A stretch of DNA of 64,000 nt from Cyanobacteria bacterium FACHB-471 (GTDB lineage Bacteria > Cyanobacteriota > Cyanobacteriia > Elainellales > Elainellaceae), in NCBI GenBank assembly GCA_014695345.1, contig JACJOC010000086.1:1-64000 (forward strand), given 5' to 3'. The notes under the pieces were generated by a model. The model had not been told where the DNA came from and searched no databases. It saw nothing but the letters and a program-made list of their open reading frames with translations. The translations under genes were made by a program, and so were the position numbers. Positions within the stretch are counted from its first letter, which is position 1. Each line of letters starts with the position of its first letter. Below are positions 4,710-56,455 of the stretch, in pieces.

Positions 4710-5114
4710 TCAAGGGGCGATCGCTACCTGGTCGGTTTCGATTTGTTTTACTCCATCGATCTGAGCCGTGATTTTTACAACCTGATCGAGTATTGACCGG
4801 TCGGGTGACCTTCCCCGAAACTCAATCATACTGCCTCGCTGCACAATCTGTAGACTTTCGACGTTTGCAACTGGGCTTTGGTCTAGCGCTAGAGCCACTC
4901 GTTTTGCTAACCCTCCAAGGTCAAACTCTCCCTCTAAACCCATGTTTTCCGGCGGGGGCGGTGGGATATGGACTCCTGCTTTCTCACGCAAATCGTGGTC
5001 GTACTGTCCCGTAAGTCCTGGACTCATTTCCCCTTCATAGTGAGCTGGGCGATCGCTAGCAGAGTGCTTAGACTCCGCGACCTTTTCAACGATCAGTCTT
5101 TCCATCCAAGTCAT
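4710..5114 (-). CDS. BON-like domain protein
   Basis: This 134-residue protein has a polar N-terminal half with a proline run (HIPPPPPEN). The C-terminal 65 residues form a beta-alpha-beta unit typical of BON domains: LAKRVALALDQSP, ESLQIVQRGSMIEFRG, then LDQVVKITAQIDGVKQIETD. BON domains are associated with membrane or phospholipid binding and envelope stress in other bacteria. There is no signal peptide. A strong Shine-Dalgarno, AAGGAGG, lies just upstream of the ATG. It follows the glycine-zipper gene on the same strand, 89 bases downstream of its stop, and may be co-transcribed with it. Confidence 0.72.
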   Translation of the reverse strand: MTWMERLIVEKVAESKHSASDRPAHYEGEMSPGLTGQYDHDLREKAGVHIPPPPPENMGLEGEFDLGGLAKRVALALDQSPVANVESLQIVQRGSMIEFRGRSPDRSILDQVVKITAQIDGVKQIETDQVAIAP

Positions 5115-5203
5115 GACTTGACCTCCTTTTCAGATCCTTGCGGCGTAGCCCAACGCTTGCTCAATTCCTAGAAGGCGTGTTTAGACCCGCTCAAGCAGGT
5201 TTA

Positions 5204-5698
5204 CTACTGCCGCACTAACTCTTCCGCTCTAGCAAATTCATCTCTGTCACCCACAAACATCAGTAAGTATTTGTGAGAAAGACGATCCCGGTCAGTCGCT
5301 ACACCTGACTTAGGCACGTTTACTCCAGCGAGGGCAGCGATTAATCCTCCGGCGATCGCTCCGATGCCTGCCCCTGCAAAAATAGCACCCCATGAAAAGG
5401 GACCAGAGTTGATAAACGCAACAGGGCTAACCGCTTTCATGTTCCCTGCTCCCAAACTTAGTAGCAGACCAACTAGCGCTCCTAGTATTGTCCCAACTAA
5501 AGCACCCCCTCCAGCACTTTCAGCGGCTTTAGTGTCTTGAGCCGGAGGATTTGGGTCTAGAGCTTGAGTTTGGATAAAAACCTGATCATTGGAAAAACCT
5601 GCTTTGAGTAGTGCGTCGCGAGCAACTTCTGCTGATTGCTGCTGCTGAAAGACCCCCACAGTATGCTGTAGCCTTTCCGTTGGGCTTTGACTCGTCAT
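5204..5698 (-). CDS. Glycine-zipper membrane protein, general-stress-like
   Basis: The protein is 164 residues long. An N-terminal cytoplasmic region (TVGVFQQQQSAEVARDALLKAGF) resembles the N-terminus of general stress protein 17M-like proteins. Two glycine-rich hydrophobic segments follow (GGGALVGTILGALVGLLLSLGAG and GAIFAGAGIGAIAGGLIAALAG, described by their composition) and form a glycine zipper. The end is a short alpha/beta tail (KYLLMFVGDRDEFARAEELV). GAGGGGGACG before the ATG is a good ribosome binding site. The family probably responds to envelope or osmotic stress, but no direct function is established. It faces away from the DUF2993 and DUF2231 genes across a 250-base gap. Confidence 0.65.
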   Translation of the reverse strand: MTSQSPTERLQHTVGVFQQQQSAEVARDALLKAGFSNDQVFIQTQALDPNPPAQDTKAAESAGGGALVGTILGALVGLLLSLGAGNMKAVSPVAFINSGPFSWGAIFAGAGIGAIAGGLIAALAGVNVPKSGVATDRDRLSHKYLLMFVGDRDEFARAEELVRQ

Positions 5699-51905: not shown

Positions 51906-52865
51906 TTATGCCTCCGCCGCTTCTAATTGTTTGGGTTGTGTAGAAAACTGAGAGGCTTCAAGGTTAGCTACACTCGAACCATACAGGTCAACAAACCGCT
52001 TGAACAACCACATTGTTTCATGGTCTGAGATTCGAGTGCGGTTGAATAAACGACTGATATTGCGTTCAGCTAGCTTACTTAAGTAGGGCAAATCCTCAAA
52101 TAGCGTTAAGCAAGAGGCGATGTGCAAAACCATTTGCAGCAAAGGTTTTGGCCATCTCAAGTCACTGTAAATATCGATAAAGAACTTATGTTCCGTTTCA
52201 CTCAGAGGTAAAACGTTAAACATCACGATGATACTCTTGCCGTTGTACACTGGAATCTTTAGTTCAACTGTGTGAGGCGTATGCAGCGTTAACTCTACCT
52301 CAACAACGGGCTGTCTCCAAATTCTTAAGGCGTTAAATGGCGAATCTAGAACTGTCTGAAACTTGATGATTCCCCCATCTTCAGTAGGCTGCAAATGGTT
52401 GACTGAAATGACTCGTAGGTTACTCAAACTAAAGTGATGGACGTTCTCCAAATGCTTTAGGTTGAGCAAATGATAAATTTGGCACAGGTGGGGAAAGGGC
52501 AAAATGTATTCCTGGCTAATCAGGTGATACTCCTGGAGCTCCAGCATTCTTGTAAGAGCCTTCCCTTGAGCTCCACACTGGCTTAACTCACTACGACGAC
52601 AAGCCAGGTTAGAGTTTAGAGATTGCAATGCAACGGAGCCATCTGGATTAAGCTCTTTCTCCGGCTTGAGGAATAGCCAGCTAACGAAGAAGAAAGAAGC
52701 CGTAAACAGATGTGCAATCTCTATTGCTGAAAGGTACCCGTCGGCAAAAGCAGCAAAGCCTCGGTCGGTGATGCCAAATACCCAAGAGGGAATACCCAAA
52801 GCCCAAATGCTGCTTTTAAATTGGTTGAAATAAAGGGCGGGGTGAATAGAGCGATCGCTTTCCAT
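51906..52865 (-). CDS. Hypothetical protein, unrecognised
   Basis: The protein is 319 residues long. A moderately hydrophobic N-terminal region (about 18-65; SAIEIAHLFTASFFFVSWLF) may hold one or two membrane helices. A soluble domain follows with beta-rich HHFSLSNLRVISVNHLQPT, QPVVEVELTLHTPHTVELKI and a helical end (HETMWLFKRFVDLYGSSVAN). I do not recognise a family. The stop lies in a region with an interspersed repeat downstream. The start ATG 52865 is supported by a modest purine-rich upstream stretch. Composition and codon use are ordinary for the window. Confidence 0.65.
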   Translation of the reverse strand: MESDRSIHPALYFNQFKSSIWALGIPSWVFGITDRGFAAFADGYLSAIEIAHLFTASFFFVSWLFLKPEKELNPDGSVALQSLNSNLACRRSELSQCGAQGKALTRMLELQEYHLISQEYILPFPHLCQIYHLLNLKHLENVHHFSLSNLRVISVNHLQPTEDGGIIKFQTVLDSPFNALRIWRQPVVEVELTLHTPHTVELKIPVYNGKSIIVMFNVLPLSETEHKFFIDIYSDLRWPKPLLQMVLHIASCLTLFEDLPYLSKLAERNISRLFNRTRISDHETMWLFKRFVDLYGSSVANLEASQFSTQPKQLEAAEA

Positions 52866-53198
52866 GACTTCACATCTTCTTCAGGCTTGATATTCTCGGA
52901 ACTCAGAGGCAGGCGTTGTGGACAAGAGGGCTTGTCCCCGCTCATGCAAGTTCAGGCTCTCTTAAGAATCCTAAACTTTCTTGCATTTGTACCTTGCTTA
53001 TGCATGTACTAATAATAAGCTAATAGTTTTGACTCCCGTTTACCCTCTACCTCAGGTTGAGCTTTGTTAAGCGACGAGGTAGAGCCCGTCCTTTGCCTCG
53101 TTGTCTCAAGAGGTAGCAAGACAGGTACCAAAAACGAAGGGATGTGTCCTTGTTTCAAGGAACGCATCCCTTCGCTTTGGCTAAAAAGGAAGAAGAAC
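52866..53198. other. Intergenic with terminator
   Basis: The 333-base gap holds the promoter of the minus-strand hypothetical gene and the hairpin at 53135-53174. No gene is visible. Confidence 0.55.
53135..53174 (-). terminator. Intrinsic terminator after the RHH-TOBE gene
   Basis: CGAAGGGATG pairs with CATCCCTTCG, and an inner TCCTTG-TTT-CAAGGA stem continues it after a small mismatch. On the minus strand the stem is followed by TTTTT, 25 bases after the stop codon. Confidence 0.82.
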
Positions 53199-53642
53199 TT
53201 ATCCTGCAGCAATCATCACGTTGTTGGATTTGATGACCGCAAAAACTTCTTTCCCTGGTTTCAAACCTAGCTTGTCAGCCGAAGTGCGAGTGACAATCGA
53301 GACTAGCTCGATGCCGGGAGCGATCGCCAAGGTCACTTCTGCATTCACCGTTCCCTTAACCACTTGTTTCACTTTTGCTTTCAAGACGTTACGGGCACTG
53401 ATTTGGATTTGGATTGCCTGAAGCGCTGTGGCATTCTCCGAATCCAGGGTTTCTTCCTTTAAATCCTCAGCCTCGATTGGGTTGGTATCTGGATCATGAA
53501 TGGGCGATCGCCCCCTCTGTCGAATCATTTCTCGCAGGATTTCTGTTTTGGTGCGCTGAGTCTGCTGACAGATCTGCTCTAAAATTTGCCGCTCTTCGTC
53601 TGAGGATTGGAAGGTAATCCAGCCTTGCTCTTTTCTTGGCAT
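53199..53642 (-). CDS. RHH-TOBE molybdate-responsive regulator
   Basis: The protein is about 147 residues. The N-terminal ribbon-helix-helix region (WITFQSSDEERQILEQICQQ, then RTKTEILREMIRQRG) should bind DNA. A 30-residue acidic linker follows. The C-terminal Mop/TOBE domain (SARNVLKAKVKQVVKGTVNA, then LVSIVTRTSADKLGLKPGKE and AVIKSNNVMIAAG) should bind molybdate or tungstate. This differs from E. coli ModE, which uses a winged helix. It is divergent from modA and modBC, with TTGGTA repeats between. It is most likely the repressor of molybdate uptake. ATG 53642 is used; no strong ribosome binding site is visible. Confidence 0.86.
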   Translation of the reverse strand: MPRKEQGWITFQSSDEERQILEQICQQTQRTKTEILREMIRQRGRSPIHDPDTNPIEAEDLKEETLDSENATALQAIQIQISARNVLKAKVKQVVKGTVNAEVTLAIAPGIELVSIVTRTSADKLGLKPGKEVFAVIKSNNVMIAAG

Positions 53643-53649
53643 TATCAAA

Positions 53650-53677
53650 TACCAAATATGTTGGTATAAAGTTGGTA
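53650..53677. promoter_or_regulatory. Candidate operator: three TTGGTA half-sites with 5-base spacing
   Basis: TACCAA (53650-53655), TTGGTA (53661-53666) and TTGGTA (53672-53677) repeat every 11 bases, placing all sites on one helix face. The first two form an inverted pair and the last two a direct pair. They lie directly upstream of the regulator start and 117 bases from modA. Ribbon-helix-helix proteins typically bind such short spaced repeats. Confidence 0.65.
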
Positions 53678-53793
53678 CGATATGATTTCGAGTCTAGTTC
53701 AGTTGGAAGGTCAACCTATAGAACCCATAGAGCTAATGGCTTGCTCCCTCCGAACTAACAATACTAGCTCTTCTTTACTCCAACTCAGGTGTT

Positions 53794-54591
53794 ATGAAAC
53801 GAAGACGCGTTCTCGCTTTGCTGGGCGGATTCCTAGCAGCCCTGTTGCTGGCGATCGGCTTCAAAATAGTTATGCCTGCTGCAGTCGATGCTCAATCTGC
53901 AAGACTATTGATTGCAGCAGCAGCCAGCTTGCAAAATGCGATTGAAGAAATTGATCCGCTGTTTGAGTCGGCTAACCCAGGCATAACAGTCAGCTATAAC
54001 TTCGCAGCATCAGGTCCACTGCAGCAGCAGATTGAGCAGGGTGCACCTGTGGATCTATTCATCTCAGCCGCTGCCCGACAAATGAATGCTTTGCAAGAGG
54101 GGAATCTGATCGTCTCCAATACTCGTCGCAACTTGCTCACCAACAGTCTAGTTCTGGTAGCGCCGCGTAACTCTACATTGGGGCTAACAGGCTTTCGGCA
54201 GTTAGCCAACTCTGACGTTGAACGAATTTCAATGGGGGAGCCGCGCAGTGTTCCGGCTGGACAGTACGCCGAGGAGTTATTCAGGAATCTAGGAATTTGG
54301 GATCAGTTGCAGCCTAAGTTGGTATTTGGCAACTCGGTTCGCAACGTTTTAGGAACGGTCGAGAGTGGCAATGCGGATGCAGGTGTGGTCTATGCGACCG
54401 ATGCCAGAATTTCAGCACAGGTGACACAAGTTGCGACCGCTCCTAGCGACCTGCATACTCCAATTGTTTACCCCATGGCCGTTGTTGCAGCTAGTCGCAA
54501 CCAGCAAGCCGCTCGTACTTATGCTCGATTCTTAAGGAGTAGACAGGCTCAAGCGGTGTTCAGACGATACGGCTTTGGGATTGCTTCTTGA
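53794..54591 (+). CDS. modA: Molybdate ABC transporter substrate-binding protein ModA
   Basis: The protein is 265 residues long. A signal peptide with KRRR start and a hydrophobic stretch (VLALLGGFLAALLLAIGFKI) leads to mature protein near DAQSARLL. The periplasmic-binding fold has LIAAAASLQNAIEEIDPLFE (molybdate-contacting AAASL), FAASGPLQQQIEQGAPVDLF, ISAAARQMN and NADAGVVYATDA. It captures molybdate for the ModBC fusion, which starts 13 bases after its stop. The divergent RHH-TOBE gene and the TTGGTA repeats upstream suggest repression when molybdate is plentiful. Confidence 0.93.
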   Translation: MKRRRVLALLGGFLAALLLAIGFKIVMPAAVDAQSARLLIAAAASLQNAIEEIDPLFESANPGITVSYNFAASGPLQQQIEQGAPVDLFISAAARQMNALQEGNLIVSNTRRNLLTNSLVLVAPRNSTLGLTGFRQLANSDVERISMGEPRSVPAGQYAEELFRNLGIWDQLQPKLVFGNSVRNVLGTVESGNADAGVVYATDARISAQVTQVATAPSDLHTPIVYPMAVVAASRNQQAARTYARFLRSRQAQAVFRRYGFGIAS

Positions 54592-54604: not shown

Positions 54605-56455
54605 ATGACTGCCGATCTCTCCCCACTATGGATTTCTCTTAAAACCGCAGGGCTTGCAACGATCGCCACCTTCCTGACGGGAATTGCGGCTGCTTACTGG
54701 ATGCTGGGCTACCGGGGACGATGGAGGTCAGTCGTTGAAGGTATTTTTGTCGCACCGTTGATTTTGCCACCTACGGTTGTGGGCTTTTTGCTATTGCTTC
54801 TGTTTGGCAGGAATGGACCCTTGGGTCAGGTTATGGCTCAGTTTAATTTTACGATTGTGTTTACCTGGTATGCCGCAGTGATTGCAGCGACAGTTGTGGC
54901 ATTTCCGCTGATGTACAAGACTGCATTGGGGGCATTTGAACAGGTTGATAGCAGTTTGCTCCAGGTTTCCCAAACGCTGGGTGCCTCAAAGGGGCGAATT
55001 TTCTGGCGAATACTCCTGCCGCTTTCTGTTCCGGGTATTCTGGCTGGAACAACGTTGTCCTTTGCGCGAGCGTTAGGGGAGTTTGGTGCAACGCTGATGC
55101 TAGCTGGGAATATTCCTGGTCAAACCCAAACGATTCCAATGGCAATTTTTTTTGCAGTGGAAGCGGGAGCCATGAACGAGGCATGGCTGTGGGTACTGGT
55201 GATCATGACGATTTCACTGTCGGGTATTGTTGTGGTGAACCTCTGGCAAACTCACTATGAGCGCAAAATTCAAAGGAATCCTTTGAGTGTAGTGGAAGCT
55301 AATGAACCTTTGCCCGGCAGAGATAAAACGGCTGAAATTCCACAGACTGTAACTCTAACTAAATTCCAGTCTCAGTTTGAACAAGGCTTGTTCGTTGATA
55401 TTGAGAAACAGCTTGCAAACTTCAGTTTAAATACAGCATTTACCGCTCAGCAGGAAACATTAGGGTTGTTGGGTGGTTCCGGTTCTGGTAAAAGCATGAC
55501 ACTGCGATGCATTGCTGGAGTCGAAACCCCTACTCACGGGCAAATTGTTTTGAATGGTCAAACTTTATTTGACTCGGATAAGCGAATTAATCTCCCTAGC
55601 CATCGCCGCAAAGTCAGTTTAGTGTTTCAGAACTATGCCCTGTTTCCTCACATGACGGTTGCTCAAAATATTGCATTTGGCTTGCAGCATTTACCAAAAG
55701 TGATGCGATCGCAACAAGTAAACCAACAGCTTGCTTTGCTGCATCTACAGGGCTTGGGCAATCGCTATCCCCACCAACTTTCAGGTGGACAACAGCAACG
55801 AGTAGCCCTAGCCAGGGCACTGGCAACGGAACCGGAAGTATTGTTGTTAGATGAACCCTTTTCGGCGTTGGATAGCTATCTTCGCAGTCAGGTCGAGCGT
55901 CAACTGGTTGAGACTTTATCTACCTATAAAGGTGTCACTTTGTTTGTCACACACAACCTGGAGGAAGCCTATCGGGTGTGTGAAAAACTGATGGTAATGT
56001 CAGGTGGAAAAGCGATCGCCTTTGATTCTAAACACCAGATCTTTGAACATCCCCGAACCTTACGTGTGGCTCAACTTACAGGATGCAAAAACTTTTCCCG
56101 TGCTGTTGCTGTTAGACAAAACGCGATCGAGGCGATCGATTGGGGCATCACCTTACACGTCATGGAAGCAATTCCTCAAGATCTGACGGATATAGGGATT
56201 CGTGCTCATCAAATGAGTCTCATGCGCAGTCCTGCTCCCGGTCAAAACAATACATTTCCCTGCTGGTTAGCTTCAACCAGTGAAACTCCTCATCGGATGA
56301 CCCTTTTCCTTAAATTGAATGCTGAGCCTCAAGGATCACAGGACTATCATGTGCAGGCAGAAATGTTCAAAGAAAAGTGGCAAGCCATTAAGGAGCATCC
56401 ACTTCCCTGGTATGCGCGGTTCGATCCCTTACGACTTATTTTGCTAGTTAACTAA
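54605..56455 (+). CDS. modBC: Fused molybdate permease-ATPase ModBC
   Basis: The protein is about 616 residues. The N-terminal permease (residues 1-225) has five or six membrane helices and the EAA-type loop ASKGRIFWRILLPLSVPGIL, GTTLSFARALGEFGATLMLA. After a linker, the ATPase follows with Walker A GGSGSGKS (about 290-297), FQNYALFPHMTVAQN, LSGGQQQR (about 391) and Walker B VLLLDEPFSALD. The C-terminal 130 residues are a divergent regulatory region rather than a clear TOBE pair. Fusion of ModB and ModC is known in cyanobacteria. ATG 54605 has AGGGAG upstream. It imports molybdate for nitrate reductase and other molybdoenzymes. Confidence 0.93.
   Translation: MTADLSPLWISLKTAGLATIATFLTGIAAAYWMLGYRGRWRSVVEGIFVAPLILPPTVVGFLLLLLFGRNGPLGQVMAQFNFTIVFTWYAAVIAATVVAFPLMYKTALGAFEQVDSSLLQVSQTLGASKGRIFWRILLPLSVPGILAGTTLSFARALGEFGATLMLAGNIPGQTQTIPMAIFFAVEAGAMNEAWLWVLVIMTISLSGIVVVNLWQTHYERKIQRNPLSVVEANEPLPGRDKTAEIPQTVTLTKFQSQFEQGLFVDIEKQLANFSLNTAFTAQQETLGLLGGSGSGKSMTLRCIAGVETPTHGQIVLNGQTLFDSDKRINLPSHRRKVSLVFQNYALFPHMTVAQNIAFGLQHLPKVMRSQQVNQQLALLHLQGLGNRYPHQLSGGQQQRVALARALATEPEVLLLDEPFSALDSYLRSQVERQLVETLSTYKGVTLFVTHNLEEAYRVCEKLMVMSGGKAIAFDSKHQIFEHPRTLRVAQLTGCKNFSRAVAVRQNAIEAIDWGITLHVMEAIPQDLTDIGIRAHQMSLMRSPAPGQNNTFPCWLASTSETPHRMTLFLKLNAEPQGSQDYHVQAEMFKEKWQAIKEHPLPWYARFDPLRLILLVN

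Follow-up and report, generated by a model that had tools for sequence, protein, structure and literature searches.

The window analysed here, 64,000 nucleotides of contig JACJOC010000086.1 from Cyanobacteria bacterium FACHB-471, encodes a small protein, RHH-TOBE, in which a ribbon-helix-helix (RHH) N-terminus is joined to a Mop/TOBE domain. We consider it likely that this protein is a one-component sensor of molybdate (and tungstate), the loaded form of which represses modA-modBC and its own gene. The observed basis comprises the domain make-up, the conserved oxyanion-contact positions, the conservation of the operator, the co-occurrence of protein and site, and the uniqueness of the site in the organism's own genome. 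From these we infer that RHH-TOBE binds DNA, responds to molybdate, represses and forms an oligomer.

The features of the locus are collected in the table. Alignment of 27 homologues placed the start of the regulator at a conserved ATG (53642) and its stop codon at 53199-53201; M1, P2, K4, Q6, G7 and W8 were invariant in all 27 sequences. The TTG at 53648, which an open reading frame list gave as the start, is not the conserved one. The regulator is divergent from modA-modBC, and the spacer between it and modA is 151 bases. Searching the 7.15-Mb genome with the regulator returned a single match. Six TOBE matches were found in this genome, of which the regulator is the only one in a short frame; the remaining five sit in frames of 342-451 aa and are likely transporter ATPases. 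The hairpin downstream of the regulator probably ends its transcript. It was not flagged by a terminator scan, consensus promoter scans did not find the candidate modA -10 box, and the promoter and terminator scans yielded nothing useful. No nifH was reported in the genome with 6 of 26 first-look candidates scored, so its molybdenum is presumably used by other enzymes. Finally, a 319-aa ORF downstream of the regulator (51906-52865, minus strand) matched nothing in Pfam or NCBIfam at E values up to 1; a fragment related to it (61% over 57 aa) occurs at L208:9398-9568, beside an XRE-PBP/nifH cluster.

Table. Positions of the regulator, operator and uptake genes within the window.
Feature	Position	Strand	Basis or remark
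Strong hairpin 3' of the regulator stop	53120..53190	-	RNA fold -33.7 kcal/mol, z -7.19
RHH-TOBE regulator gene, 147 aa + stop	53199..53642	-	Profile matches, homologue alignment
Mop/TOBE domain, about residues 80-147	53202..53405	-	Pfam TOBE, TIGR00638 Mop
RHH domain (putative DNA-binding), residues 1-48; helices 15-28 and 32-44	53499..53642	-	Model, alignment, fold matches
Operator hexamer 1	53650..53655	-	TTGGTA on the minus strand, TACCAA on the plus strand
Operator hexamer 2, TTGGTA	53661..53666	+	With hexamer 1, the conserved palindrome TACCAA-N5-TTGGTA
Operator hexamer 3, TTGGTA	53672..53677	+	Same 11-bp register; invariant in eight aligned regions
Candidate modA -10 box, TACGAT	53676..53681	+	TA..AT invariant in eight aligned regions; overlaps hexamer 3
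modA, molybdate-binding protein	53794..54591	+	TIGR01256, 222.9 bits (cut-off 62.5)
modBC fusion, permease and ATPase	54605..56455	+	TIGR02141, 247.6 bits (cut-off 182.6); ABC_tran, 119.6 bits

The C-terminus of the regulator matched Pfam TOBE with 67 bits (cut-off 22.3) and TIGR00638 Mop with 82.4 bits (cut-off 55). Its closest solved structures are ModG, MopII, Tub and the C-terminus of ModE. Residues S82, R84, T118, K138 and S139 were invariant in 27 of 27 homologues and, at an offset of 78 residues, align with Ser4, Arg6, Ser40, Lys60 and Ala61 of Tub. These are the tungstate contacts of the buried sites in Tub, Ala61 contributing through its backbone, according to the cited portion of PMC11980592. 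S82, R84 and K138 are identical to their counterparts in Tub, and two of the five positions differ (Thr118 for Ser40 and Ser139 for Ala61). Judged by this alignment, the regulator possesses the oxyanion-contact positions of a Mop/TOBE domain. Fold searches with the whole model returned the Mop domain only and not the RHH part.

The N-terminus was evaluated separately. Pfam RHH_1 scored 16.5 bits on the full-length regulator and 19.3 bits on residues 1-48 alone, both under the cut-off of 20.5; among 40 homologous N-termini it matched 30 at E ≤ 0.1, the best at 0.00027. In the predicted structure, residues 1-48 contain two helices (mean pLDDT 86.1); the strand of the RHH part is not formed in the monomer model. 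Q6, W8, T10 and Q12, which alternate along the presumed strand, were invariant in 40 of 40 sequences. Using residues 1-48, Foldseek gave a best E of 0.6 and none at or below 0.001 among 48 rows, as may be expected for a query of 48 residues. Most of these rows are what we take to be RHH proteins, namely PutA, NikR, CopG, Arc, AtaR and ParD. A structural second look gave Z values of 6.5 to PutA and 6.3 to NikR, a level that alone is no proof of relation to RHH proteins. By the ranges aligned in this second look, W8, T10 and Q12 occupy roughly the positions at which NikR, CopG and PutA touch bases. When the N-terminus was compared by sequence with solved structures, only designed proteins came up, none better than E 0.28. 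Based on the helices, the invariant strand residues and the fold matches, we counted the strand and two helices of the RHH fold as present. NikR likewise combines an RHH reading head with a ligand-binding C-terminal domain; its sensor is a nickel-binding ACT-type domain, not Mop, and its operator differs. A preliminary description of this DNA had proposed the fusion of RHH to a Mop domain, and that proposal is borne out by the TOBE and Mop scores together with fold matches that are mostly to RHH proteins, the RHH_1 score being below its cut-off.

Three exact hexamers lie between the regulator gene and modA with a start-to-start step of 11 bp. The same description had reported TACCAA, TTGGTA and TTGGTA every 11 bases, and this was exact at 53650, 53661 and 53672. 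TTGGTA-N5-TTGGTA occurs once in the window and never in 100 shuffles, and the perfect palindrome TACCAA-N5-TTGGTA occurs once in the 7.15-Mb genome, at the regulator/modA spacer. When one mismatch was allowed, the palindrome was found at 15 places in the genome versus 16 for a reversed control pattern; thus, the weaker copies look like background. The shuffles and the uniqueness in the genome led us to reject a chance origin of the hexamers. The direct pair TTGGTA-N5-TTGGTA was rejected as a general signature, with three places in the genome versus three for the control.

The operator is conserved in relatives. In eight aligned intergenic regions, namely the window and seven relatives chosen for an adjacent modA and clear sites, hexamers 2 and 3 were unchanged in all eight and hexamer 1 in seven, while much else varies. 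Among 66 dereplicated regions upstream of full-length homologues, 48 contained the palindrome with at most 2 of 12 mismatches, as compared to 0.9% for shuffles preserving base content only. The best matches had 0, 1 and 2 mismatches in 35, 11 and 2 regions, respectively, and in 40 of the 48 the palindrome ended 4-7 nt before the start codon. An exact hexamer was present at least once in 58 of the 66 regions and an 11-bp pair in 37; shuffles, again preserving only base content, gave 0.13 pairs of any spacing per whole 66-region set. The commonest exact-hexamer count per region was three (22/66). The 143 hexamer pairs within 70 bp clustered at spacings of 11, 19-22, 30-32 and 41-45 bp, the 11-bp spacing alone occurring 50 times. 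Among the 80 pairs separated by more than 12 bp, the in-phase quarter contained 51 and the opposite quarter 3. The hexamer spacings are therefore near whole helical turns. An extra direct hexamer (TACCAA-N5-TACCAA in the orientation of the regulator) was found in 11 of the 66 regions: eight of these belong to f1, the family of the window, or to f30, two to f29 and one to a named MAG. The inverted pair TACCAA-N5-TTGGTA forms the conserved core, to which the direct pair is an addition mainly of the window's lineage. The palindrome was poor or absent in 18 of the 66 regions, 16 of which lacked an adjacent modA in the stretch examined.

Protein and site also occur together across the phylum. Full-length homologues of the regulator were found in 42 of 386 sampled genomes, the own genome counted. 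Perfect palindromes numbered 163 in 51 carrier genomes versus 15 in 51 non-carriers, and at least one was present in 48 of the carriers (three having none) versus 9 of the non-carriers; the reversed control pattern numbered 37 and 27, respectively, and as the genomes are closely related, none of the counts reported here is independent. None of the nine non-carrier sites examined, out of 15, was in a locus matching the reference genes. All 50 distinct 250-nt regions upstream of modA with the regulator within 1 kb contained an exact hexamer, and 32 of the 50 contained an 11-bp pair. By contrast, modA upstreams where only a Mop protein without RHH was found had a hexamer in 2 of 11 and the 11-bp pair in 0 of 11, a comparison for which 11 of 19 loci were usable and four of the 11 were distant modA types (28-30% identity). 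With no regulator near, the values were 14/14 and 10/14, in loci that were fetched by the site pattern or a nearby site and hence are not independent. Two such modA genes without an adjoining regulator have seven (L179) and five (L209) hexamers within 250 bp upstream. In the assembly of L264 (4117-4912), a modA adjoining an operator site appears as two short ORFs and is possibly broken or mis-assembled. The preliminary description had held that absence of the repeats upstream of orthologous mod genes would count against it; the figures of 50/50 and 32/50 favour it. It had also proposed a search for TTGGTA-N5-TTGGTA near molybdenum genes in other cyanobacteria: 11-bp hexamer pairs do occur there, with the inverted rather than the direct pair as the conserved core. 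Finally, nifH was present in 27 of the 42 regulator carriers versus 31 of the 344 other genomes, in searches that score a limited number of first-look candidates. The regulator is linked with nitrogen fixers, but not as a rule.

To describe candidate targets, 158 distinct sites were examined among the 163 perfect sites counted in carriers. Of these, 72 are found within 450 bp upstream of a gene of the reference set; another 63 fall inside ORFs, and the remaining 23 lie elsewhere. Many perfect sites are thus background. The 72 sites precede RHH-TOBE/modA (20), modA alone (15), RHH-TOBE alone (8), RHH-TOBE/modBC (1), modBC (3), a second modA type (4), mop (3), a PaoABC-like aldehyde oxidoreductase (1), XRE-PBP (VnfR-like) genes (6), RHH-only paralogues (2) and recurrent partner genes (9); for nine of the 72, the gene types were added to the reference set because they recurred at sites. 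The tally also took in non-carrier loci L012-L030, none of which holds a site. Summing the classes, 55 of the 158 sites precede mod, mop, regulator or molybdenum-enzyme genes. The preliminary description had placed the operator at modA. Hexamers are indeed found upstream of modA, and the regulon predicted from sites in relatives looks wider than this gene.

In L214 (4001-8017), a perfect palindrome lies 193 bp before the aldehyde oxidoreductase operon. In L282 (4001-11438), paralogues of nifH, nifE and nifN follow an XRE-PBP gene that has a site; the cluster also encodes an HSDR_N-like protein and Mop and contains two operator palindromes, and neither nifD nor nifK was seen in 14 kb. Within the window's family, a second site in L268 (4001-7155) precedes an operon encoding an HSDR_N-like protein, a luciferase-like (LLM) oxidoreductase, an ArsC-type protein associated with nitrogenase (TIGR01616) and a small protein without family assignment. 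This gene set recurs in part in L073, L270 and L205. The RHH-only paralogues, which lack Mop and are about 65 aa long when counted from the conserved start (L074, 4978-5207; L075, about 5025-5245), have the palindrome just before their start in both loci, so the RHH part probably reads the site. Genes for homocitrate synthase (nifV), XRE-PBP and nifH-like proteins lie within 5 kb of the RHH-only paralogue in L074 and L075, gene families having been scanned directly for L074 and assigned by likeness for L075.

In the mechanism we propose, the Mop domain would bind the oxyanion and oligomerise, and RHH dimers would read the TACCAA/TTGGTA hexamers, which follow one another by a helical turn along the same face of the DNA. 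With ample molybdate, the loaded protein would occupy the three-hexamer operator (53650-53677) and cover both the modA promoter and the leader immediately preceding the regulator start codon, and modA-modBC and the regulator would both be shut off. Occupancy should block both genes, as hexamer 3 overlaps the likely -10 box and hexamer 1 is near the regulator start. When molybdate is short, the regulator would let go and uptake would rise. The loaded protein as the repressor fits the repression of a molybdenum-transport gene by molybdate and tungstate in Anabaena variabilis, for which a 'modE homolog' just upstream of modA was suspected (PMC4284476, in the part cited). Besides the sub-cut-off RHH_1 score, the 18 regions with a poor palindrome, the three carriers with no perfect site and the many background sites, two observations count against this reading. 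The aldehyde oxidoreductase operon of L214 is a target not expected to be shut off by a molybdate-loaded protein. Further, XRE-PBP and nifH clusters of relatives carry sites, although vnfH of A. variabilis was not repressed by tungstate in the same portion of PMC4284476.

Sites before mop (3) and the aldehyde oxidoreductase operon (1), the products of which are useful with molybdate present, would also suit a regulator of opposite or double polarity, in which the apo-protein represses or the loaded form activates some targets such as molybdenum enzymes and mop. We regard this as unlikely given the overlap of the hexamers at modA with the likely -10 box and the repression by molybdenum and tungstate in A. 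variabilis (PMC4284476, part cited). It is very unlikely that the hexamers are bound by another regulator, for example XRE-PBP (VnfR/TaoR-like), with RHH-TOBE as merely a neighbour or a molybdate store. XRE-PBP genes do have the palindrome upstream at 6 of 158 sites, and VnfR1 and VnfR2 are known molybdenum-dependent repressors (cited section of PMC4284476). However, the own genome's only perfect site adjoins the RHH-TOBE gene, the site accompanies the Mop-less RHH paralogues in 2 of 2 loci, and the 11-bp pair is missing from all 11 modA upstreams of genomes without RHH-TOBE.

The palindrome could also form an RNA hairpin at the ribosome-binding site of the regulator, its 6-bp stem and 5-nt loop ending 4-7 nt before the start codon in the 40 of 48 cases noted above. 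We judge such a role highly improbable: there was no sign of paired changes, 11 of the best sites carrying one mismatch (which cannot pair) and only two carrying two. Moreover, the third hexamer is a direct repeat outside the stem, other genes are preceded by copies at distances of tens to a few hundred bp, and Rfam gave no match up to E 1.

Beyond repression by loaded RHH-TOBE, a more elaborate reading is doubtful, and we offer it tentatively. A molybdate-filled Mop hexamer might grip all three sites, replace ModE and command a molybdenum-starvation regulon. A trimer of Mop dimers would present three RHH dimers matching the three in-register hexamers, so that molybdate loading and operator geometry would be built into one another. 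In Nostoc relatives and the window's family, the regulon would include uptake, Mop storage, nitrogenase-like and cofactor-related clusters. The idea of a hexamer on three sites is a speculation drawn by analogy from Tub, a trimer of dimers (PMC11980592, cited portion).

We compared RHH-TOBE with known systems. The winged-helix domain of ModE (TIGR00637) exceeded its cut-off in none of 386 cyanobacterial genomes; the own genome had no match with 10 of 10 first-look candidates scored, and the same search was over the cut-off in 2 of 14 control genomes. Matches at E ≤ 0.001 occurred in 132 of the 386 genomes and, among the rows listed, scored at most 32 bits except in G107. With low scores and, as a rule, long frames, the weak matches are probably other helix-turn-helix proteins. 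G107, which is outside the window's class, had a sub-cut-off match of 81.2 bits (cut-off 98.5). The alternative to ModE control suggested in the preliminary description agrees with these searches, the regulation itself being predicted from sequence. ModE of E. coli and its relatives shares with RHH-TOBE a Mop-domain oxyanion sensor for molybdate uptake, and the C-terminal domains are alike in sequence and fold. They differ in that ModE has a winged helix-turn-helix, whereas RHH-TOBE has RHH and the operator TACCAA-N5-TTGGTA, and in that ModE has two Mop domains (PMC11980592, in the portion cited) versus one TOBE stretch in RHH-TOBE. The 'modE homolog' of A. variabilis ATCC 29413 has the same place and the same suspected job as RHH-TOBE; described without an RHH part or operator in the cited part of PMC4284476, it is a candidate counterpart. 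In Anabaena sp. 4-3 (L113), an RHH-TOBE gene is divergent from modA, 98 bp apart.

The Mop, ModG and Tub molbindins share the TOBE domain and similar contact positions, but serve in storage or homeostasis and have no DNA-binding part (PMC11980592, as far as cited). VnfR1, VnfR2 and TaoR-like regulators share molybdate- or tungstate-responsive control (cited parts of PMC4284476 and PMC11980592). XRE-PBP genes share clusters and sites with the RHH-TOBE family in some relatives; they differ in having a helix-turn-helix and a PBP-like domain (one protein scanned). Their place beside a nifH gene and the description in the cited part of the review (PMC4284476) suggest that they are VnfR. A TOBE survey of gut microbes includes ModE-like and TaoR-like regulators, with the RHH form not among them in the section cited (PMC11980592). 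Judging by titles and abstract openings, no RHH-Mop regulator or TACCAA-N5-TTGGTA operator was described among the literature matches listed. RHH-TOBE belongs with the Mop-domain molybdate regulators, and its RHH make-up and operator appear new.

Molybdenum is the metal of nitrogenase and nitrate reductase, and its sensing in cyanobacteria has so far been left to a suspected 'modE homolog', as presented in the cited part of PMC4284476. We predict that in many cyanobacteria RHH-TOBE probably does ModE's job of molybdate sensing. With a candidate sensor identified and its operator readable, the question can be tested in an ordinary laboratory strain, and molybdenum regulons can be read from sequence. 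The combination of RHH and Mop would be a second evolutionary route to the logic of ModE.
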